Shown: piece by piece, positions 3,650 through 24,924 of the stretch | Layout: every line of letters begins with the position of its first letter | How positions within the stretch are numbered: the stretch's first letter is position 1 | NCBI RefSeq assembly: GCF_003326015.1 | Contig: NZ_CP023860.1 | Location: 1,488,001 to 1,552,000 of the forward strand | Direction: 5' to 3' | Length of the DNA: 64,000 bases | Source of the DNA: Candidatus Thioglobus sp. NP1 | GTDB lineage: Bacteria > Pseudomonadota > Gammaproteobacteria > PS1 > Pseudothioglobaceae | The notes under the pieces: generated by a model | Seen by the model: only the letters and a program-made list of their open reading frames with translations | The model's database searches: none | Told to the model about the DNA's origin: nothing | Program-made: the position numbers and the translations under genes

Positions 3650-5104
3650 ATGCTGAAAAATTTAAATCTTCTTAAAACTCATGGTTATATTAATGGACAG
3701 TGGGTTGGAGATAACGTTAAATCACGCTTTGATGTCACTAATGCCTATACAAATGAAGTTATTAGTACACTACCTGATATGGGTAAAAAAGAAACTGATG
3801 AGGCTATTTTAGCAGCAAATGCTGCCTGGCCAGAATGGCGCAGTCGAACTGCTAAAGAAAGAGCTGCTATCTTAAAGAAATGGTTTGATTTAATAATGTC
3901 TAACCAAGAAGATTTAGCAATGTTAATGACAGCAGAACAGGGAAAGCCACTAGCTGAAGCTAGAGGTGAAGTTGGTTATGGTGCTTCTTTTATTGAATGG
4001 TTTGCTGAAGAGGGTAAGAGGACTTATGGTGACGTAATCCCGACTCCTGCAAATGATAGGAGAATACTTGTAATAAAACAACCTATTGGTGTTGTTGCTT
4101 CAATAACACCATGGAACTTCCCAATTGCTATGATCACAAGAAAGTGTGCTCCAGCTCTTGCTGCTGGATGTCCAGTTGTTATTAAACCTGCAGCAGAAAC
4201 CCCTTTGTCTGCTTTAGCAATTGCTGAACTTGCCGATCAAGCAGGTATACCAAAAGGAATTATTAATGTAATTGTAGGAACAAATTCTAGTGAAATTGGT
4301 TTAGCATTAACGGATAGTAAAATTGTTCGAAAACTTTCATTTACTGGATCAACAGCAGTTGGAAAAATTTTGACTCGCAATTGTGCCGATACAATGAAAA
4401 AAGTTTCAATGGAGCTTGGAGGGAATGCTCCGTTTATAGTTTTTGATGATGCTGATATAGATGCAGCAGTTGCAGGAGCAATGATATCAAAATTTAGAAA
4501 TACAGGGCAAACCTGCGTTTGTACTAATCGTTTTCTAGTTCAAGAAGGAATTTATGAAGAGTTTGTAAAACGACTTGCTGATGCTGTCAAAACATTAAAT
4601 GTTGGGAATGGAATGGATGAAGGAGTTAATCAGGGACCTTTAATAAGTTTAAAAGCGCTTGATAAAGTTAAGGATCACTTATCAGATGCAGTTGATCGAG
4701 GTGCTGTAATTGTTGCAGGAGGAAAGCCTCATCAAAATGGTGGAACAATGTTTGAGCCAACTGTTGTTAGTAATGTCGATAGCTCAATGAAAATTGCATC
4801 AGAAGAAACATTTGGACCACTTGCCCCTATTTTTAAGTTTTCAACAGAGCAGGAGGCTATTGATATGGCAAATGATACTGAGTTTGGGCTTGCATCTTAT
4901 TTCTTTACAAACGATATTAATAGAATATGGAGAGTTTCAGAAGCACTTGAATATGGCATGGTTGGTGTTAATGAAGGTGTAATCTCTAACGAAGTTGCTC
5001 CATTTGGAGGTATTAAAGAATCAGGCTTAGGAAGAGAGGGCTCTCATTATGGAATTGATGACTTCCTTGAATTAAAATATATTTGCATGGGTGGCTTGAA
5101 ATAA
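3650..5104 (+). CDS. gabD: Succinate-semialdehyde dehydrogenase (NAD(P)+)
   Basis: Oxidises succinate semialdehyde to succinate, the last step of GABA and putrescine breakdown. The 484-aa protein follows E. coli GabD almost end to end (ITPWNFPIAMITRK, KLSFTGSTAVGK, ELGGNAPFIVFDDADID, FRNTGQTCVCTNR, NEVAPFGGIKESGLGREGS). The general-base Glu is residue 255 and the catalytic Cys residue 289; the second cysteine of the CVC pair, used for redox control in GabD, is present as well. It follows the putrescine importer, which suggests imported polyamine is routed to the TCA cycle; the aminotransferase steps are not in this window. Other aldehyde dehydrogenases (glutarate semialdehyde, for instance) cannot be excluded as secondary activities. 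Confidence 0.9.
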   Translation: MLKNLNLLKTHGYINGQWVGDNVKSRFDVTNAYTNEVISTLPDMGKKETDEAILAANAAWPEWRSRTAKERAAILKKWFDLIMSNQEDLAMLMTAEQGKPLAEARGEVGYGASFIEWFAEEGKRTYGDVIPTPANDRRILVIKQPIGVVASITPWNFPIAMITRKCAPALAAGCPVVIKPAAETPLSALAIAELADQAGIPKGIINVIVGTNSSEIGLALTDSKIVRKLSFTGSTAVGKILTRNCADTMKKVSMELGGNAPFIVFDDADIDAAVAGAMISKFRNTGQTCVCTNRFLVQEGIYEEFVKRLADAVKTLNVGNGMDEGVNQGPLISLKALDKVKDHLSDAVDRGAVIVAGGKPHQNGGTMFEPTVVSNVDSSMKIASEETFGPLAPIFKFSTEQEAIDMANDTEFGLASYFFTNDINRIWRVSEALEYGMVGVNEGVISNEVAPFGGIKESGLGREGSHYGIDDFLELKYICMGGLK

Positions 5105-5162: not shown

Positions 5163-5197
5163 TATTGCGTCATTTCACTGATTGGTATAATGACGCA
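5163..5197 (+). promoter_or_regulatory. hom promoter with overlapping inverted repeat
   Basis: A perfect -10 hexamer TATAAT lies at 5186-5191. A perfect 9-bp inverted repeat, TGCGTCATT (5166-5174) and AATGACGCA (5189-5197) with a 14-base gap, brackets the -35/-10 spacer and overlaps the -10. The -35 is poor (TATTGC at 5163-5168, 17-base spacer). The geometry is what an operator for a dimeric repressor would look like; the regulator is unknown. Confidence 0.5.
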
Positions 5198-5218
5198 TTC
5201 GATTTTATAAAAAAAATA

Positions 5219-6496
5219 ATGAAAGTTGGAATTCTTGGACTAGGCACTGTTGGTGGTGGTGTAGTAAATGTCTTACAAAAAAATAGTGAATCTATTCAAA
5301 GACGAACTGGAGTTAAAATAGAGCTTGTAATTGCTGGTGTTCGAAATAAAACAAAAAAACGTATTTGTGATACTTCAGATATCAAACTAACTGAGGATCC
5401 ATTTGAAGTTGTTAATCATCCTGATATTGATGTAGTCCTTGAACTTATAGGGGGTTTTGGCCTTGCTAAGGAACTAATTGAGACTGCTATAAACAATGGT
5501 AAACACATCATTACTGCCAATAAAGCACTTATTGGAAATCATGGTAATGAATTAATTAAACTTGCAAACAAGAAAGAAGTACGCTTTTTATTTGAAGCTT
5601 CTGTGGCTGGAGGAATTCCAATTATTAAAGCTTTGGAGCAAGGTCTCAGTGCTAATAATATTGAATCAGTTGCTGGAATAATTAATGGAACTGGTAACTT
5701 TATCCTAACTGATATGAAGGAAAAGGGTAGAGACTTTGATGATGTCCTAAAAGAAGCTCAAGCACTTGGTTACGCTGAAGAGGATCCTACATTTGACATT
5801 GAAGGAATTGATGCTGCTCATAAACTTTCAATTTTAGCTGCAATTGCCTTTGGAACTAAAATTCAGTTTGATAAAGTTTATACAAAAGGGATCAGTGACA
5901 TTACGACTGAAGATATCCTTCATGCTACCGAGTTAGGATATACAATTAAACATTTAGGTATTGCCAAAAGAGTTGAAAATGGAATTGAGCTTCGCGTTCA
6001 CCCTACTCTAGTTTCTAATAAACAATTGATTGCGCAAGTTGATGGGGTCATGAATGCTGTGATGGTAAAAAGTGATGCTCTCGGGACTAGCCTATATTAT
6101 GGTCCTGGTGCTGGTGATGAAGCTACTGCTTCTGCAGTTATTGCTGATCTTAATGACATTATTAATAATCAAACCAGTAATCATACTTTAGGATGGAAAT
6201 CTCAGCAAAAAATTAATGTTATTGATAATGACTCAATAAATAGTGAATTCTTTTTAAGGCTTTTAGTTTCTGATGTAAAGGGAGTTCTTTCAAAAGTAAC
6301 TGGAATTTTTAATGACCATAATGTCAGTATTGAAGCACTTATTCAAAAACAAGTGGATGAGAATAAAAATGCCCATATTGCCATAACAACAGATCGAGTA
6401 AGTACTAAAACAGTTATGAGTATCAAAGCTGCAATAGAGGCAAGAGAGTTTAATCAAGCAGATGTTCAAATTATTCATATTGAATTACTAGACTAA
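5219..6496 (+). CDS. hom: Homoserine dehydrogenase
   Basis: Reduces aspartate semialdehyde to homoserine, the branch point to threonine and methionine. The chosen ATG (5219) gives 425 aa and puts the Rossmann motif GILGLGTVGGG at residues 4-14; an upstream in-frame TTG at 5165 would place the promoter's -10 within the gene and is rejected. The central catalytic region shows NKALIGNHG, EASVAGGIPIIKALEQGL and GIINGTGNFIL. A C-terminal ACT domain (EFFLRLLVSDVKGVLSKVTG onward, from about residue 340) indicates allosteric control, normally by threonine. It is monofunctional, without a fused aspartokinase. thrC follows after 16 bases, so the two are co-transcribed. Confidence 0.92.
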   Translation: MKVGILGLGTVGGGVVNVLQKNSESIQRRTGVKIELVIAGVRNKTKKRICDTSDIKLTEDPFEVVNHPDIDVVLELIGGFGLAKELIETAINNGKHIITANKALIGNHGNELIKLANKKEVRFLFEASVAGGIPIIKALEQGLSANNIESVAGIINGTGNFILTDMKEKGRDFDDVLKEAQALGYAEEDPTFDIEGIDAAHKLSILAAIAFGTKIQFDKVYTKGISDITTEDILHATELGYTIKHLGIAKRVENGIELRVHPTLVSNKQLIAQVDGVMNAVMVKSDALGTSLYYGPGAGDEATASAVIADLNDIINNQTSNHTLGWKSQQKINVIDNDSINSEFFLRLLVSDVKGVLSKVTGIFNDHNVSIEALIQKQVDENKNAHIAITTDRVSTKTVMSIKAAIEAREFNQADVQIIHIELLD

Positions 6497-19055: not shown

Positions 19056-19850
19056 ATGTCTGTAAGAAAATCCATCAAAGATTATCTAAAAGAGGATATT
19101 GAAGATATATCAAAGCTCTTAAGCTTGGCGCTTAAAAAATCTAAAGAACAATTATTTTCAAATCCTAATTATGAGCTTAATAATATTGAGCTCAATGCAC
19201 TTGATAATCTCATTGAACAACGCAATGATGGGAAGCCCTTTGCATATTTAAAAGGCTCTCAAGGGTTTTATGACCTTGACTTTATTGTCTCATCTGCTAC
19301 TTTAATTCCTAGACCTGAAACAGAATTATTAATTGATATTACACTAGATACATTCGATATAAATTCAAAAATAAATGCATTAGATCTTGGGACTGGTAGC
19401 GGAGTAATAGCTATTACACTTTCTGAAAAATACCTAAACTGGTCAATATCTGCAACGGATCAATCTATGGCAGCACTAAAAATTGCTCAGCTCAATACCG
19501 ATAAGAATATAAATTTTTACCATGGTAATTGGTTTGACCCACTTCCTAAAGAAAAATTTGATTTAATCGTTAGTAACCCTCCATATATAAATGATCATGA
19601 TCCACATCTTAAAAGTCTCGGCTATGAACCAATTGAGGCCTTAATTTCAGGAAGTGATGGACTAGATGATATTAGGAAAATTATTTTACAAGCACCACAA
19701 TTTCTGAATCAAGCTGGCTACCTTTTATTAGAACATGGCTATAATCAGAAAAATCATATTATTGATTTACTTAAAGAATCTTTTGAAAATATTAAGGCCT
19801 TTAAAGATATTAATAAAATTGACAGGGCGATTCTAGCGCAATTAAGGTAA
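19056..19850 (+). CDS. prmC: Peptide chain release factor N5-glutamine methyltransferase
   Basis: Methylates the glutamine of the GGQ motif in release factors RF1 and RF2. The 264-aa protein has an N-terminal helical domain (to about residue 80), the block GSQGFYDLDFIVSSATLIPR then PETE, the SAM-binding loop ALDLGTGSGVIAITL, and the catalytic SNPPYIN. prfA, the usual neighbour, is not present. Its last nine bases overlap the end of the convergent EamA transporter gene. Confidence 0.92.
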   Translation: MSVRKSIKDYLKEDIEDISKLLSLALKKSKEQLFSNPNYELNNIELNALDNLIEQRNDGKPFAYLKGSQGFYDLDFIVSSATLIPRPETELLIDITLDTFDINSKINALDLGTGSGVIAITLSEKYLNWSISATDQSMAALKIAQLNTDKNINFYHGNWFDPLPKEKFDLIVSNPPYINDHDPHLKSLGYEPIEALISGSDGLDDIRKIILQAPQFLNQAGYLLLEHGYNQKNHIIDLLKESFENIKAFKDINKIDRAILAQLR

Positions 19851-20789
19851 CTCAAAAAAATCGGCCTTTTTAATTGCAGACTTTTGCTGAGCTAAAATAA
19901 CCCCTGTAATAACAATGACTGCTCCGATTGCCTGGTGCCAAATCCAACTATCGCCAAGAAGAAAAAGCATAAACATCACATAAAAAGGAACAGCGTTTAG
20001 ATGAAAAGATGCTAACCCAATTCCTAAACGGCTTACTGCCTTAATCCAAAAAATTTGAGATATTCCTAAACCAAGCCATCCATAGATGAGAACTAAACCA
20101 AGATGTTCAAGAGTAATGAGTTCTAGAGATTCTGTAACTTCAAAAAAAATACTACATACAAAATATAATAGAATTGAAAGTCCAGCCATTCCAGATGATG
20201 TAACAGCTGTTTGCCCAAGAGTTGACATTCCAGGAAGATTTTTAACTGTTGCTCGAGAGCCCCATGCAAAAAGCATTACTCCAATAACGCCCATTAAGGC
20301 AGCAAAACCAATACCTTCATTGTTAAGGGATGCGCCTGATGCAATATAACCTCCTAAGAGAACTAAAATCACCCCACAGAAGAACCATAAAGTCATTTTC
20401 CGTCCATCTAGCAGCATTTCTAGTGAAACAGCAAATACTGGCATTGTAGCAACAGCTAATGCCGCAATTACAGGAGTTGTTAAGGCCTGCAGAATGAGGA
20501 TTAAAAATGCGCCAATTCCAAATCCAGTAACACCTATCAAAAAACCCTTAGCCCATTTAGCTGATTTGACTTTATCAACTTTTTCTATTGCCAGCCAGAT
20601 AATAAATATTAAAATAAATGAAAATACATTTCGAGCTGTCATAACACTAACAACATCCCAATCTTCTAATAAATATTCTGCAGCAGGAAAGCCCATTGCA
20701 AAAAGTAGGATTGAAAAAACACAAAGTAAATTTGATTTCAAAACCCCTAAATCTTTTTCAACTTTATCTTCTGAAGGTGATTCATTCAT
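19842..20789 (-). CDS. EamA/DMT-family transporter
   Basis: Ten-span inner-membrane protein of the drug/metabolite transporter superfamily, likely an exporter of amino acids or metabolites. Two EamA repeats are visible: about residues 15-150 (LLCVFSILLFAMGFPAAEYL to LVLLGGYIAS) and 165-300 (GFAALMGVIGVMLFAWGSRA to VIVITGVILAQQ). The ATG at 20789 gives 315 aa; a TTG at 20819 would add ten residues. Substrate cannot be deduced. It shares an upstream region with the divergent Cys/Met PLP-enzyme gene, which may or may not be meaningful. Confidence 0.8.
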   Translation of the reverse strand: MNESPSEDKVEKDLGVLKSNLLCVFSILLFAMGFPAAEYLLEDWDVVSVMTARNVFSFILIFIIWLAIEKVDKVKSAKWAKGFLIGVTGFGIGAFLILILQALTTPVIAALAVATMPVFAVSLEMLLDGRKMTLWFFCGVILVLLGGYIASGASLNNEGIGFAALMGVIGVMLFAWGSRATVKNLPGMSTLGQTAVTSSGMAGLSILLYFVCSIFFEVTESLELITLEHLGLVLIYGWLGLGISQIFWIKAVSRLGIGLASFHLNAVPFYVMFMLFLLGDSWIWHQAIGAVIVITGVILAQQKSAIKKADFFELP

Positions 20790-20884
20790 AGATTGTAAAA
20801 ATGTTATAACAATAAGCAAAATGGCAATATATCAGAAAATGTTAATTTAATATTTTTATTTAATTAAAGATGGTATTTTGAAGA

Positions 20885-20914
20885 TTGTCAAAAGTTAATT
20901 TCTAAATGTATAAT
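20885..20914 (+). promoter_or_regulatory. Strong promoter for the PLP enzyme-doeA operon
   Basis: TTGTCA (20885-20890, 5/6) and a perfect TATAAT (20909-20914) are separated by 18 bases. The predicted start is near 20921, about 98 bases before the start codon, leaving a long leader. This is among the best sigma-70 matches in the window. Confidence 0.6.
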
Positions 20915-20920
20915 CAAATT

Positions 20921-21018
20921 ATCAAGATAAAGGCTTTTCAAGCGCTGCCTTGAAAATAGGATACAAATGATTAATAATCATTTTTTTTTATAGTCAACGC
21001 AAATTTAAGGGGTAATCA
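20921..21018 (+). promoter_or_regulatory. Structured leader with terminator-like hairpin
   Basis: The leader holds a perfect 8-bp stem TTTTCAAG/CTTGAAAA (20935-20942 with 20949-20956, loop CGCTGC). A competing 5-bp pairing, AAGGC (20930-20934) with GCCTT (20947-20951), cannot form at the same time. Next is an AT-rich 8-bp hairpin (20965-20972 with 20976-20983), running into nine Ts ending at 20989. This resembles a transcription attenuator or small riboswitch expression platform. I could not match it to SAM-II or another known class by eye. An AAGGGG Shine-Dalgarno lies just before the ATG. Confidence 0.4.
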
Positions 21019-22212
21019 ATGCTTGATAAAAAAAATATTGGAAAATCTACTCAAAGTATTTGGGGTGGGGAACAAGAATATGAGCTTTATGAACGCTCAA
21101 CGCAAGTCCCAGTTGTCCACAGTGTTTCATTTGCATATAAAGATATTGATACTTGGCATAAAGTTGCCTTAAATGAAGCTGAGGGTCATATTTATTCCCG
21201 TAATACTAATCCAACAGTTCGTACCTTTGAAGATAAAGTCAAAGTTCTAGAAGGTGCTGAGGCTGCAACTAGTTTTTCCTCTGGTATGGCAGCAATAAGC
21301 AACACATTGGCAACATTTTTAACTACTGGTGATCGGATTGTTTCGATTAAAGATAGTTATGGCGGGACAAATGTAATTTTTAATGAATTTTTACCCCCAC
21401 TTGGAATTGAAGTTTCACTTTGTGAAACTGGAGATTACGAGCAATTAGAAGCTGAAATTTCAAAAGGATGTCAAGTTTTATATCTTGAAACACCAACTAA
21501 TCCCACAATTAAAATTACCGATATAAAACGTTTAAGTTTGGTAGCTAAAAAAGTTGGTGCATTGGTTGTTGTAGATAATACTTTTGCGACACCAATTAAC
21601 CAAAACCCATTAGAGCTTGGAGCTGATATAACTCTTCATTCTGCCTCTAAATACCTGGGTGGCCATGCAGATGCTCTTGGAGGAGTAATTTGTGGCAATC
21701 AAGATCTTGTTAAAAAGGTTTATCATTATCGTGAAATAAATGGCGCAACTCTTGCGCCAATGGATGCATACAGTCTTTTAAGAGGCATGAAAACTCTTAA
21801 GCTTAGAGTGCAAAGACAAAATGAAAATGCCATGATGATTGCAAACTATTTACAAAATCATCCAGCAGTTGAACAAGTTAATTACCCTGGTCTGGCATCC
21901 CATCCTGACCATGAAATAGCTAAAATGCAAATGCATGGAGGCTATGGGGGTATGTTAAGTTTTGCTGTTAAGGGAGGTTTAGATGCTATTAAAGAATTCC
22001 TACCAAAACTCAATTATGCTCATATGGCAGCCAATTTAGGTTGTGTTGAAACTGTTGTTGGGCCGCCATCGACTACGAGTCATGTTGAGTGCTCTGCTGA
22101 AGAGAGACTGGCTGCAGGTATTCCAGAAGGTTTGGTAAGATATTCAACTGGAATTGAGGATGTGGAAGATTTAATTGCTGACTTAGAACAAGCATTGAAA
22201 GTTATTTCATAA
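21019..22212 (+). CDS. Cys/Met-metabolism PLP enzyme (cystathionine gamma-synthase family)
   Basis: Fold-type I PLP enzyme, 397 aa, related to cystathionine gamma-synthase, cystathionine gamma-lyase, methionine gamma-lyase and O-acetylhomoserine sulfhydrylase. Visible: YSRNTNPT (59-66), SSGMAAISN near 88-96, YLETPTNPT (155-163), VVVDNTFATP with Asp186, and SASKYLGGHADALGG with the PLP Lys211. The exact reaction is not readable from motifs. A good promoter and structured leader precede it, and the ectoine hydrolase gene follows after 18 bases with its own AAGGA site, so the two form an operon. That context hints at a role in osmolyte nitrogen metabolism rather than plain methionine synthesis, but this is inference. 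Confidence 0.8.
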   Translation: MLDKKNIGKSTQSIWGGEQEYELYERSTQVPVVHSVSFAYKDIDTWHKVALNEAEGHIYSRNTNPTVRTFEDKVKVLEGAEAATSFSSGMAAISNTLATFLTTGDRIVSIKDSYGGTNVIFNEFLPPLGIEVSLCETGDYEQLEAEISKGCQVLYLETPTNPTIKITDIKRLSLVAKKVGALVVVDNTFATPINQNPLELGADITLHSASKYLGGHADALGGVICGNQDLVKKVYHYREINGATLAPMDAYSLLRGMKTLKLRVQRQNENAMMIANYLQNHPAVEQVNYPGLASHPDHEIAKMQMHGGYGGMLSFAVKGGLDAIKEFLPKLNYAHMAANLGCVETVVGPPSTTSHVECSAEERLAAGIPEGLVRYSTGIEDVEDLIADLEQALKVIS

Positions 22213-22230
22213 TATTTTAAGGATTAGATA

Positions 22231-23409
22231 ATGAAACAAGATAGAAGAAGATTTAGCAAAGAAGAGTACCTTGAAAGACAATTAAAGGTTCGTAACTCGA
22301 TGGAGAAATCAAATATAGATGCCTTAATTGTTTATGATCCTGCCAACATGTTTTGGCTGACTGGTTATGATGGCTGGTCATTTTATGTTCATCAGTGCGT
22401 GATAATTACAACCACTGGTGATCTGTTTTGGTATGGTAGAGGCATTGATGCAAAGGGTGCAGAACTAACTACAGATCTTGAACTTAATAACATTTTGTCT
22501 TATCCCGATGAATATGTAATGACCCCTGATAGACACCCAATGGAGTTTCTTGCCAATATCTTAAAAGAAAAAGGATTGCACACTAAAAAAATTGGACTAG
22601 AAAAAGATAACTATTTCTTTTCAGCAAGGGCAGCAGAGTCATTATACATTTCACTACCTTCGGCAACCTTTAGTGATCAAACAGGATTAGTTAATTGGCA
22701 AAGGGCAGTTAAATCAGAGACTGAAATTACATATATGAAGCGAGCAGGTAAAGTTATTGAAGGCGTGTATGAACGCGTCATGGCAGTTGCAGAACCCGGG
22801 ATGCGAAAAAATGATCTGGTAGCTGAAATATATCATGCAGGAGTTCAGGGGCATGAAGGTCATTATGGAGACTATGCCTCATTCGTTCCCCTTATTGGAG
22901 CTGGTGAAGAGGCTGCAGCCTGTCATATGACTTGGAATGACCAACCATTAAAAAATGAGGAGGGTATGTTTCTAGAACTTGGGGCTGCGTATGCGAGGTA
23001 TCACTGTCCATGTTCAAGGACGCTTTATTTAGGAACACCACCACAGCAATACTTAGATATTGAAAAAGTTATTAATGAGTGCATTGAAAATGCAATTGAA
23101 ATGTTTAAGCCAGGCAATACCTGTGCACAAATTTCTGATAACTTCACAGCTACTCTAAAAAAACATGGCTATGAAAAAAATAATCGATGTGGTTACCCTA
23201 TTGGCTGTAGCTATCCACCTGACTGGGGTGAGCGTACCATGAGTCTTCGTGGGACTGATAATACTGTTTTAGAAGAGAACATGACTTTTCATTTTATGCC
23301 TGCAATCTGGTTTGATGACTGGGGCTTTGAGATGACTGAGAGTATCCGTGTTGGAGCAAATGGCGGTGAGTGCCTATCAAACGTTCCCAGAAAGTTATTG
23401 GTTAAATAA
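22231..23409 (+). CDS. doeA: Ectoine hydrolase (DoeA/EutD family, M24 creatinase-like fold)
   Basis: In characterised relatives this enzyme opens the ectoine ring to N-acetyl-diaminobutyrate, the first step of ectoine use as carbon and nitrogen source. The 392-aa protein has the N-terminal creatinase-like domain (FWLTGYDGWSFYVHQCVI) and the pita-bread domain from about residue 165 (VNWQRAVKSETEITYMKRA). Family-typical stretches are EPGMRKNDLVAEIY, SYPPDWGERTMSLR and MTFHFMPAIWFDDWGFEMTE. The usual M24 metal-binding aspartates are replaced (FLELGAAYARYHCPCSRT), as in the metal-free creatinase/ectoine hydrolase branch. DMSP lyase DddP and aminopeptidase P were considered; these blocks fit neither. 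The deacetylase DoeB/EutE is not nearby. Confidence 0.82.
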   Translation: MKQDRRRFSKEEYLERQLKVRNSMEKSNIDALIVYDPANMFWLTGYDGWSFYVHQCVIITTTGDLFWYGRGIDAKGAELTTDLELNNILSYPDEYVMTPDRHPMEFLANILKEKGLHTKKIGLEKDNYFFSARAAESLYISLPSATFSDQTGLVNWQRAVKSETEITYMKRAGKVIEGVYERVMAVAEPGMRKNDLVAEIYHAGVQGHEGHYGDYASFVPLIGAGEEAAACHMTWNDQPLKNEEGMFLELGAAYARYHCPCSRTLYLGTPPQQYLDIEKVINECIENAIEMFKPGNTCAQISDNFTATLKKHGYEKNNRCGYPIGCSYPPDWGERTMSLRGTDNTVLEENMTFHFMPAIWFDDWGFEMTESIRVGANGGECLSNVPRKLLVK

Positions 23410-23429
23410 CTTTAATCTTAAAGTTATGT

Positions 23430-24158
23430 CTATAAGTTTTCTATGACTTGAGAAATTTGATCAAAAGTCGCTTGGTTAGATGTGAATACAGGCTTACCAA
23501 TTGCAGCCTCTATTTCAGGAATAATTTCTGCTGACCTCATCGCAGTACACGAGATAAAAATCGCATCAGCGTCCTCATGAATTGCCGCTTTCGCTGCTGT
23601 AATTATTTCCTCAGCAGGCAGCATAGCAACATCTCTATCGTCATCCATATCCATATGCATTGAAGACACCATTTCAACGCCATTGCGCTCTAAATAACCC
23701 CTTAAAAGCGAAGAAACCTCTTCGCTGTAAGGAGTTAAGACACTAATCTTTTTAAAGCCTCGTGCTTTGAAATTAGCTACTACAGCCTGGGAAGTAGATA
23801 AAACTTTTGCAGTTGGCTTACTTTCTTTAATTGCGTGCTCTATTGCTTCATCACCAACAATGGATGATGATGATGTGCAATTAAAAACCACTAAATCAAG
23901 GTCATAATTAGGAAGTATTAGGGCAGCAGCTTCAGTCAAGTCATCACCAATTGCAGCTAGAGACTGAGGCGTCATTGGATTAGCAAAATGAATTCGGTTG
24001 AAATAAAAGTCATAGTCTGGTTTTTTTTCTGAGTACATCCTTACAAAATCACGCTCAAAAGTAAAATCAGTATTCAAGACTATCAGACCAACTGATGGCC
24101 TATCCCTCCTCTCACTCAAAGCATCTGATATTTGATATTTTTTTGATTCTATAGTCAT
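23430..24158 (-). CDS. eutA: Ectoine utilisation protein EutA (Asp/Glu racemase-like)
   Basis: A 242-aa member of the maleate isomerase/arylmalonate decarboxylase branch of the Asp/Glu racemase superfamily. Family-like blocks are PSVGLIVLNTDFTFERDFV, FYFNRIHFANPMTPQSL, a first cysteine in VVFNCTSSSSIVG and a second in AIFISCTAMRSAEI, where the paired catalytic cysteines sit. TSNQATF near the end is typical of EutA. In alphaproteobacterial clusters eutA is grouped with eutBC and proposed to help convert hydroxyectoine to ectoine; its reaction is not settled. Here it faces doeA tail to tail (20-base gap) and starts six bases after the SMR gene. Maleate isomerase is the alternative. Confidence 0.75.
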   Translation of the reverse strand: MTIESKKYQISDALSERRDRPSVGLIVLNTDFTFERDFVRMYSEKKPDYDFYFNRIHFANPMTPQSLAAIGDDLTEAAALILPNYDLDLVVFNCTSSSSIVGDEAIEHAIKESKPTAKVLSTSQAVVANFKARGFKKISVLTPYSEEVSSLLRGYLERNGVEMVSSMHMDMDDDRDVAMLPAEEIITAAKAAIHEDADAIFISCTAMRSAEIIPEIEAAIGKPVFTSNQATFDQISQVIENL

Positions 24159-24164
24159 AATAAA

Positions 24165-24494
24165 TTAATTTTTAATTGATGTTGAAAAAAGGTGCATCAC
24201 TACAACTCCTGAGATAATTAAAGCCATACCAATAATTGATGCGAGATCAGGCATCTCCTTATAAATAATTGCCCCAGAACATGCAACCAAAACAATGCCT
24301 AATCCAGACCAAACAGCATACACCACGCCTAATGGCAATTCTCTTAAAGCTAGAGTCATTAACCAAAAAGAAACAAGGTAGAAGATAACCAAAAAGGTGG
24401 TTGGTACTAGCTTAGAAAACTCTTCTGTAGCCTTTAAAAGAGTTGTTCCAGCAACCTCAGCTGCAATAGCAAGTGCCAAATATACATAGGTCAT
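24165..24494 (-). CDS. Small multidrug resistance (SMR) family transporter
   Basis: A 109-aa, four-span membrane protein of the EmrE/Qac group. It begins MTYVYLALAIAAEVAGTTLL, which contains the essential membrane Glu (residue 13, in AEVAGTT). The third span carries GVVYAVWSGLGIVLVACSG and the fourth GMALIISGVVVMHL, both typical. It would function as a dimer exchanging protons for a cationic or zwitterionic solute. It is the first gene of a two-gene operon with eutA, behind a good promoter. A link to betaine- or ectoine-type solutes is suggested by that neighbour but unproven; toxic-cation export is the default expectation. Confidence 0.88.
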   Translation of the reverse strand: MTYVYLALAIAAEVAGTTLLKATEEFSKLVPTTFLVIFYLVSFWLMTLALRELPLGVVYAVWSGLGIVLVACSGAIIYKEMPDLASIIGMALIISGVVVMHLFSTSIKN

Positions 24495-24522
24495 TATGAT
24501 TAAAGTTTCTATAAAAAATCAC

Positions 24523-24551
24523 AGTATAACCTTAAGAAATAAATTTTACAA
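24523..24551 (-). promoter_or_regulatory. Promoter of the SMR-eutA operon
   Basis: On the minus strand TTGTAA (24551-24546) and TATACT (24528-24523) are separated by exactly 17 bases. The predicted start lies ~20 bases before the SMR start codon. It falls between rnpB and the SMR gene, so the operon need not depend on rnpB read-through. Confidence 0.5.
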
Positions 24552-24576
24552 AAGATTTAAAAGAAGAATAATTAAT

Positions 24577-24924
24577 GAAGTTGGCCTATAAGCCGGGTTC
24601 TGTTTGGCCGAAGCCTTGATAGTCATTCATCTATGATACTTGTCACCAAGCACCTTGAGCACTCTACCCGAAGACAACGCGAGCAGCGCCAATGCCTTCC
24701 TATTTGAGCTTGCTCCAAGTGGGGTTTACCATGCCACACTTATCACTAAGTGCGCGGTGAGCTCTTACCTCACCATTTCACCCTTACCTATCGAGATAGG
24801 CGGTTTATTTTCTGCTGCACTTTCCGTCGTATCACTACGCCTAGCAGTTAACTAGCACTTTACTCTATGGAGCCCGGACTTTCCTCCCAATGCTAATGCA
24901 TTCGGCGACTATCCGGCCAACTTC
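24577..24924 (-). ncRNA. rnpB: RNase P RNA, bacterial type A
   Basis: Catalytic RNA of RNase P, which removes 5' leaders from tRNA precursors. Read on the minus strand it begins GAAGTTGGCC and ends with the complementary 3' strand (AACCCGGCTTATAGGCCAAC). The conserved P4/J regions are present: GAGGAAAGTCCGGGCTCCAT near the 5' end, then GGGTGAAATGGTGAGGTAAG and AGATGAATGACTATC near the 3' end. Its ~348-base length is close to that of E. coli (377). A perfect -10 TATAAT lies just upstream. Ends are estimated from the terminal helix and may be off by a few bases. Confidence 0.95.

Follow-up and report, generated by a model that had tools for sequence, protein, structure and literature searches.

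In a 64,000-nucleotide stretch of the genome of Candidatus Thioglobus sp. NP1 (contig NZ_CP023860.1, positions 1,488,001 to 1,552,000; the window), we analyzed a four-gene island in which a pyridoxal phosphate (PLP)-dependent enzyme of the Cys/Met metabolism fold, here called the PLP enzyme, is encoded next to the ectoine hydrolase DoeA and opposite to an EutA-like protein and a small multidrug resistance (SMR) transporter. Ectoine is widespread as an osmolyte, and in the sea it also serves as a nutrient. The island is best read as a real, conserved and locally incomplete ectoine module, and its route as a variant of the known ectoine pathway, which according to an excerpt of PMC7192451 runs through DoeA, DoeB, DoeD and DoeC and the mechanism of which is described as not completely understood in an excerpt of PMC10203224. 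Judged from sequence and gene order, we give about even chances to the proposal that the window encodes part of a route for scavenging ectoine, in which the PLP enzyme would convert 2,4-diaminobutyrate to homoserine and ammonia and would thereby replace DoeD. In this route DoeA would open ectoine to N-acetyl-2,4-diaminobutyrate, an unlinked DoeB would remove the acetate to yield 2,4-diaminobutyrate, and the PLP enzyme, a gamma-lyase-type enzyme with a cystathionine gamma-synthase fold, would expel the gamma-amino group and add water to release homoserine and ammonia, a gamma-replacement that fits the PLP fold. Homoserine could then be converted to aspartate semialdehyde by a homoserine dehydrogenase, encoded by an operon gene in Bacillaceae and by a housekeeping gene in the window genome (Table 1), or it could directly enter threonine and methionine synthesis. 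If the PLP enzyme makes homoserine from diaminobutyrate, it takes the place of the transaminase DoeD. If true, a homoserine-forming enzyme would explain ectoine clusters without DoeD, it would assign a function to the NCBI family NF006097, which is spread over several phyla, and it would link the use of ectoine directly to the supply of threonine and methionine. Among open-licence PMC papers we found neither a described enzyme for the conversion of diaminobutyrate to homoserine nor a paper joining the proposed steps, and the excerpts of these papers describe only the transaminase route from diaminobutyrate.

The role proposed for the PLP enzyme is read from its neighbors in other lineages. Fifty named loci, several of them cut by contig ends, were found with the window PLP protein, and DoeA lies within 6 kb of the PLP gene in 28 of them (in 26 immediately downstream and on the same strand), many of the 28 being close kin of the window and not independent. 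Further neighbors in the 50 loci are DoeB (13), homoserine dehydrogenase together with aldehyde dehydrogenase (6) and a gene similar to S-methylmethionine permease (4, one of them in pieces). Plasmid records encoding the PLP enzyme at 60–80% identity number 34, all from Priestia, Klebsiella or Pluralibacter. The Klebsiella plasmid examined carries eutC, an EutB-like gene (409 bits, cut-off 413), an ABC ATPase gene and ehuADCB, and divergently an EhuR-type regulator (568.5 bits, cut-off 480), doeA, doeB and the PLP gene, while the Pluralibacter plasmid carries the regulator, doeA, doeB, the PLP gene and ehuBC, followed by insertion sequences. Two Priestia plasmids show the order eutB, a gene with the annotation pdxS, M24 hydrolase, cyclodeaminase, PLP enzyme, M20 peptidase, homoserine dehydrogenase and aldehyde dehydrogenase. 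In Bacillus sp. FJAT-14578 and Halalkalibacter alkalisediminis the genes for M24, PLP enzyme, M20, homoserine dehydrogenase and aldehyde dehydrogenase stand together, with EutC also present in the FJAT-14578 operon, and both genomes carry another PLP copy elsewhere. The homoserine dehydrogenases of four loci (L083, L118, L185 and L080) score 453.6, 461.9, 460.8 and 412.6 bits and all pass the cut-off of 373, including those of the Priestia (461.9) and Bacillus (460.8) ectoine operons. Among 16 genomes of the Bacillus family, the PLP enzyme occurs in six (10 copies) and DoeA in three, and all three DoeA-bearing genomes have the PLP gene in the DoeA operon with EutC in between (Fisher p 0.036, on small numbers). 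In these Bacillaceae operons diaminobutyrate would arise through the hydrolase and the M20 deacetylase-like protein, and the path from homoserine to aspartate would run through homoserine dehydrogenase and aldehyde dehydrogenase; the gap between these steps is the conversion of diaminobutyrate to homoserine, and this is the role that we propose for the PLP enzyme. The idea of the initial annotation that a gamma-synthase-family enzyme acts on the diaminobutyrate product is thus favored by the operons of Enterobacteriaceae plasmids and Bacillaceae, its chemistry being deduced, while the idea of a shortened route is not supported, since the Bacillaceae operons imply a homoserine path with equally many steps. 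The suggested exchange of a zwitterion by the SMR protein found no support either.

The linkage extends beyond close kin. In a PLP tree of 50 rows (64 sequences less two fragments, L091 and L095, and 12 near copies, all DoeA-adjacent), which is a quick tree with some long branches, DoeA adjacency needs nine changes, at least six of them forced by well-supported branches, and the copies of Klebsiella and Priestia fall outside the marine clade. By this tree the link between PLP enzyme and DoeA would either be old and often lost, or have arisen several times. A Peribacillus PLP gene searched against E. coli genomes gave no match.

Within the relatives of the window strain, the arrangement is conserved. 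Among 58 genomes searched, the own genome included, the PLP enzyme exceeds its cut-off in 21, namely 20 of the genus and one of another genus (G032), and DoeA adjoins the PLP gene in 20 of these 21 loci, again including the own one, with G032 as the exception, so that the arrangement is not due to chance. The fuller layout in the genus has on one strand a DMT transporter, which adjoins the PLP gene in many loci, then the PLP and DoeA genes and sometimes DoeB, and on the facing strand an AsnC/Lrp regulator, EutA, SMR and fumarate hydratase. The EutA-like protein scores under the TIGR02990 cut-off of 318 (Table 1) and is 40–43% identical to EutA of two annotated eut clusters, one from a Phaeobacter and one from a Rhizobium; EutA-like protein and SMR transporter are conserved companions of the module. 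The AsnC/Lrp gene stands near DoeA in 13 of 14 named loci with EutA near the PLP gene and is missing in the window; it is found at 287 bits or more in 21 of the 58 genomes. The best match in the window genome reaches only 116.6 bits, so the gene was apparently lost in this strain, whose two operons now almost adjoin. One contig (L095, genome G014) shows the same gap.

In the window itself, all open reading frames, strands and coordinates of the two convergent operon pairs described in the initial annotation were borne out: 18 bp separate the PLP gene from the M24 (DoeA) gene on the same strand, the EutA-like and SMR genes lie 6 bp apart on the opposite strand, and the stops of the convergent pairs are 20 bp apart. 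The Cys/Met-type identity of the PLP enzyme was confirmed at the family level, as the protein meets the cut-off of 600 for NF006097/PRK08249 ('cystathionine gamma-synthase family protein'; score in Table 1); it misses that for methionine gamma-lyase (TIGR01328; 385 bits, cut-off 549.7) and meets no methionine-synthesis equivalog, which speaks against placing it in a plain methionine-synthesis clade. Identities as cystathionine gamma-synthase, cystathionine gamma-lyase, O-succinylhomoserine sulfhydrylase and methionine gamma-lyase were rejected, the 24 other families listed (of 45 matched) all scoring under their cut-offs. With the methionine gamma-lyase and cystathionine gamma-lyase family (PF01053) the enzyme shares the fold, the PLP lysine, Tyr114, Arg61 and Arg374, whereas it forms a separate equivalog with conserved positions of its own: in an alignment with 7 outgroup rows, K211, Y114, R61 and R374 are kept in 55/55 family rows, and 34 positions (E357 and 33 more) are conserved in at least 95% of the 55 family rows and in none of the outgroup rows. 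The roles of these residues (K211 as PLP lysine, R374 as carboxylate arginine, Y114 and R61) and of the active-site cysteine are presumed from methionine gamma-lyase work. The predicted structure (mean pLDDT 73.1; segments 58–63, 239–242 and 336–354 below 50) was used for no claim. The family is rare, exceeding its cut-off in 3 of 398 Pseudomonadota genomes, the own one included, and the nearest named relatives come mostly from SUP05, Candidatus Thioglobus and other gammaproteobacterial assemblies. Copies on three contigs labelled Alphaproteobacteria/Pelagibacteraceae (L064, L067 and L071) nest within the SUP05 clade of the PLP enzyme, which suggests gene transfer or misbinned contigs.

The closest solved structures are methionine gamma-lyases (327.5 bits), and this would agree with a reaction like that of a methionine gamma-lyase, in which gamma-elimination by the PLP enzyme would deaminate diaminobutyrate to 2-oxobutyrate and two ammonia with no homoserine being formed. 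However, the active-site cysteine of methionine gamma-lyase, presumably functional there, is a glycine in 55/55 family rows, and genes for homoserine dehydrogenase and aldehyde dehydrogenase follow the PLP gene in Bacillaceae ectoine operons and adjoin it in Pseudomaricurvus, for which reasons we regard gamma-elimination as very unlikely.

The ectoine hydrolase identity assigned earlier to the second gene product is upheld by its phylogeny. Its score to TIGR02993 (571.8 bits) lies under the curated cut-off of 613, which is also missed by 19 (own included) of the 57 genomes that match TIGR02993 at E ≤ 1e-90, and it matches the DoeA structure PDB 6twk (Table 1). In a quick tree of 62 M24 rows, to which locus L186 contributed no row, it falls in a 17-row clade (SH-aLRT 100) of which 14 members have DoeB in the examined stretch. 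By this placement, and despite the sub-cut-off score, the protein is assigned to the ectoine hydrolase (DoeA) clade; since it stands among DoeB-neighboring hydrolases, a position outside the ectoine hydrolases is not borne out. It provides the single TIGR02993 match at E ≤ 1e-90 in the whole genome (G000; 1,689,404 bases, one contig, 99.94% complete), which argues against a complete pathway elsewhere with a doeA of its own. The earlier statement that other ectoine genes are absent holds locally but not genome-wide, as a DoeB over its cut-off is encoded at G000:C1:875405-876385 (TIGR02994, 529.3 bits, cut-off 402.7; operon-type DoeB model, 509.6 bits) with no other doe gene seen adjoining it. 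Because DoeB is encoded elsewhere on the chromosome, the island is incomplete only locally. The genus contains two types of DoeB, one that reaches 642–664 bits with the operon-type model and occurs in 8 genomes, and a divergent one at about 510–527 bits, to which the window genome belongs. That the remaining steps are encoded elsewhere is thus correct for DoeB, but neither a DoeD orthologue (best match 393 bits and 38–39% identity, the reference DoeDs being 57% identical to each other) nor an EutB over its cut-off (best 221.5 bits, cut-off 413.35) was found in the window genome. Compared with the known doe/eut catabolism (DoeA-DoeB-DoeD-DoeC; EutABCDE), DoeA by its tree, DoeB in the genome and the EutA-like gene are shared, and the AsnC/Lrp gene beside DoeA is a further likeness in the relatives that the window strain lacks, whereas the window strain differs in the PLP enzyme of another fold in the operon, in the unlinked DoeB, and in that neither a DoeD orthologue nor an EutB over its cut-off was found.

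Table 1. Genes of the island and further genes of the window, with positions in the window.
Gene product	Position	Strand	Size and evidence
PLP enzyme, NF006097/PRK08249 family, Cys/Met metabolism fold	21019-22212	+	397 aa; NF006097 684 bits
DoeA/EutD ectoine hydrolase, M24 fold	22231-23409	+	392 aa; PDB 6twk 462 bits, tree
EutA-like protein, Asp/Glu racemase / arylmalonate decarboxylase superfamily	23430-24158	-	242 aa; TIGR02990 217.5 bits
SMR (EmrE/Qac-like) transporter	24165-24494	-	109 aa; PF00893 91.4 bits; EmrE chains up to 89.7 bits
EamA/DMT transporter, transcribed away from the PLP-DoeA operon	19842-20810	-	PF00892 77 bits
Homoserine dehydrogenase, outside the island	5165-6496	+	NF004976 539.9 bits, cut-off 205
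Succinate-semialdehyde-dehydrogenase-family gene beside polyamine-type ABC transporter genes	3650-5104	+	TIGR01780 712.8 bits, cut-off 646.35

For co-occurrence beyond single loci we took the genomes of 27 among the 50 named loci; most close relatives of the window were omitted, as were further loci of a genome already represented. DoeA was found in 17 of these 27 PLP-bearing genomes at E ≤ 1e-60 and in 16 at E ≤ 1e-90, compared with 57 of 398 Pseudomonadota genomes at the latter threshold (Fisher p 4e-7), a comparison that is confounded by kinship and habitat and in which the sets span different phyla. After removal of the eight genomes with DoeA near the PLP locus, two of which (G468 and G475) have a further PLP copy in a DoeA operon, the ratio is 8/19 against 57/398 (p 0.004). 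DoeD was present in none of the 19 PLP-holding loci compared (best 26% identity), several of which are near copies; one more stretch (L206), which makes up the second half of the Klebsiella cluster, contains none of the genes sought. Among plasmids, DoeD occurs at E ≤ 1e-120 in 337 records, and the ten most frequent genera listed (13 further names lie beyond these) do not include Klebsiella, which has 28 DoeA records, while Priestia with its five plasmid records is too small to appear there. The missing DoeD is suggestive at most of a replacement by the PLP enzyme, since most DoeA loci without the PLP gene do not hold DoeD either. A clean alternation of PLP enzyme and DoeD was rejected, as PLP-less genomes of the genus with DoeA and DoeB also have no DoeD orthologue. 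In genome G117, DoeA, DoeB, DoeC and DoeD (61%) occur together, and the PLP gene lies megabases away beside a permease gene.

Several observations weigh against a role of the PLP enzyme in ectoine use, most heavily the PLP-less relatives that keep DoeA and DoeB, the PLP-bearing genomes in which DoeA was not found, and the paralogues beside carriers. Ten of the 27 PLP-bearing genomes, which lie outside the window's closest kin and include some partial assemblies, have no DoeA at E ≤ 1e-60. Nine of 12 DoeA loci without the PLP gene also have no DoeD within the examined stretch, six of the 12 being from genomes with a PLP copy elsewhere and one of the three DoeD-positive loci being the locus of the query itself, without which the contrast in DoeD falls to 0/19 against 2/11 (p 0.13, not significant). 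Four genomes of relatives (G008, G015 and G028, 77–82% complete, and G018, 95% complete) keep a DoeA-DoeB locus with no PLP enzyme over its cut-off in locus or genome, and contain no DoeD closer than the matches of other relatives, so that DoeA and DoeB are maintained there without the PLP enzyme. Conversely, G012 (94% complete) has the PLP enzyme and DoeA but no DoeB match. Three PLP-bearing genomes (G001, G020 and G027) hold a transaminase 38–44% identical to DoeD, which could perform the usual DoeD step. In the Priestia operons the M24 protein reaches 530.9 bits at a DoeA cut-off of 613 and the M20 protein 227 bits at a DoeB2 cut-off of 550, so that the deacetylase role of the latter is one that we infer. 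Finally, the best DoeD-like transaminase of the window genome (38–39% identity; G000:C1:1484599-1485948), which is encoded beside an agmatinase gene (249.1 bits, cut-off 174.3) and near polyamine-type transporter genes, lies near a DoeC-like dehydrogenase, and the pair could carry out the usual steps. This dehydrogenase (3650-5104) scores 598 bits with a two-sequence DoeC model, is also over the succinate-semialdehyde dehydrogenase cut-off and has a PotA-type neighbor (420.3 bits, cut-off 355.6); from its sequence it could be the performer of the DoeC step.

This pair underlies an alternative in which the polyamine-type cluster, with its unlinked transaminase and dehydrogenase, takes care of diaminobutyrate and the PLP enzyme has no relation to ectoine, serving for example in sulfur amino acid work or in the cleavage of canavanine to homoserine and hydroxyguanidine. 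The canavanine gamma-lyase is reportedly to be attributed to Hauth et al. 2022. Matches to the transaminase and dehydrogenase models run through most of the genus, including PLP-less genomes with DoeA and DoeB, and a PLP-dependent canavanine gamma-lyase yielding homoserine exists according to excerpts of PMC10018355 and PMC12508155. Compared by these partial descriptions only, it is like the PLP enzyme in predicted chemistry, a gamma-cleavage of an amino acid to homoserine, but none of the PLP loci examined has a canavanine-type neighbor. Moreover, the linkage of PLP gene and DoeA recurs in unrelated lineages, and the plasmid records at 60–80% identity are confined to the three genera named above, whereas Rhizobium matches reach at most 39% identity among the 60 spread rows listed, and the three Rhizobium plasmid loci with distant PLP enzymes show neither a canavanine-type nor an annotated tRNA-editing neighbor. 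We consider this alternative unlikely.

Paralogues of the PLP enzyme beside permease-like or other carriers likewise weigh against diaminobutyrate and point to another substrate, most likely S-methylmethionine. Since some copies stand by a carrier resembling S-methylmethionine permease, the enzyme might instead split S-methylmethionine to homoserine (or 2-oxobutyrate) and dimethyl sulfide, and its adjacency to DoeA would then reflect that small zwitterionic solutes are used together. In three Bacillaceae loci (L083, L084 and L097) the PLP, homoserine dehydrogenase and aldehyde dehydrogenase genes occur with a permease closest to S-methylmethionine permease, L084 additionally with aspartase, and L100 contains only permease pieces; in G117 the PLP gene stands by a similar permease (648.8 bits), a threonine-synthase-like gene (by inspection) and an NtaA/DmoA-type monooxygenase (494.4 bits, cut-off 279.7). 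However, all three permeases scanned, including two of Bacillaceae with 669.6 and 680.7 bits, lie under the cut-off of 716, G468 and G475 have one paralogue in the permease-type cluster and a different one in the ectoine operon, and S-methylmethionine cleavage leaves unexplained why the PLP gene of ectoine operons is flanked by genes for a deacetylase-like protein and for homoserine dehydrogenase. As an account of the window's enzyme, S-methylmethionine cleavage appears quite unlikely. Both substrates could be accommodated within the family: tentatively, and with somewhat less than even confidence, we propose that NF006097/PRK08249 comprises homoserine-forming gamma-hydrolases that would serve a DoeD-free ectoine route in marine gammaproteobacteria, on Enterobacteriaceae plasmids and in Bacillaceae, while the permease-side paralogues would split S-methylmethionine and release dimethyl sulfide.

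Two of the permease-type regions deserve description in their own right. The G117 region (L167:4871-17092) combines the PLP gene with the permease-like carrier and the NtaA/DmoA-type monooxygenase and, by inspection, with the threonine-synthase-like gene and an amino acid ABC importer, and is possibly an S-methylmethionine or dimethyl sulfide island. In L084 (L084:9881-16896) the genes for PLP enzyme, homoserine dehydrogenase, aldehyde dehydrogenase, aspartate ammonia-lyase (782.3 bits, TIGR00839 cut-off 681.2) and permease follow in a row, an order that suggests a path leading to fumarate from an amino acid that yields homoserine.

For ectoine synthesis, PF06339 gave no match in the window genome, and as 14 controls were silent too, an absence of ectoine synthesis is not demonstrated by this search. 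A promoter and terminator scan was uninformative, with 12 promoter-like sites compared with 13.2 in shuffled sequences. Next to the island, a bacterial class A RNase P RNA (RF00010, 331.5 bits) is encoded on the minus strand at window positions 24573-24924, between the SMR and fumarate hydratase genes.

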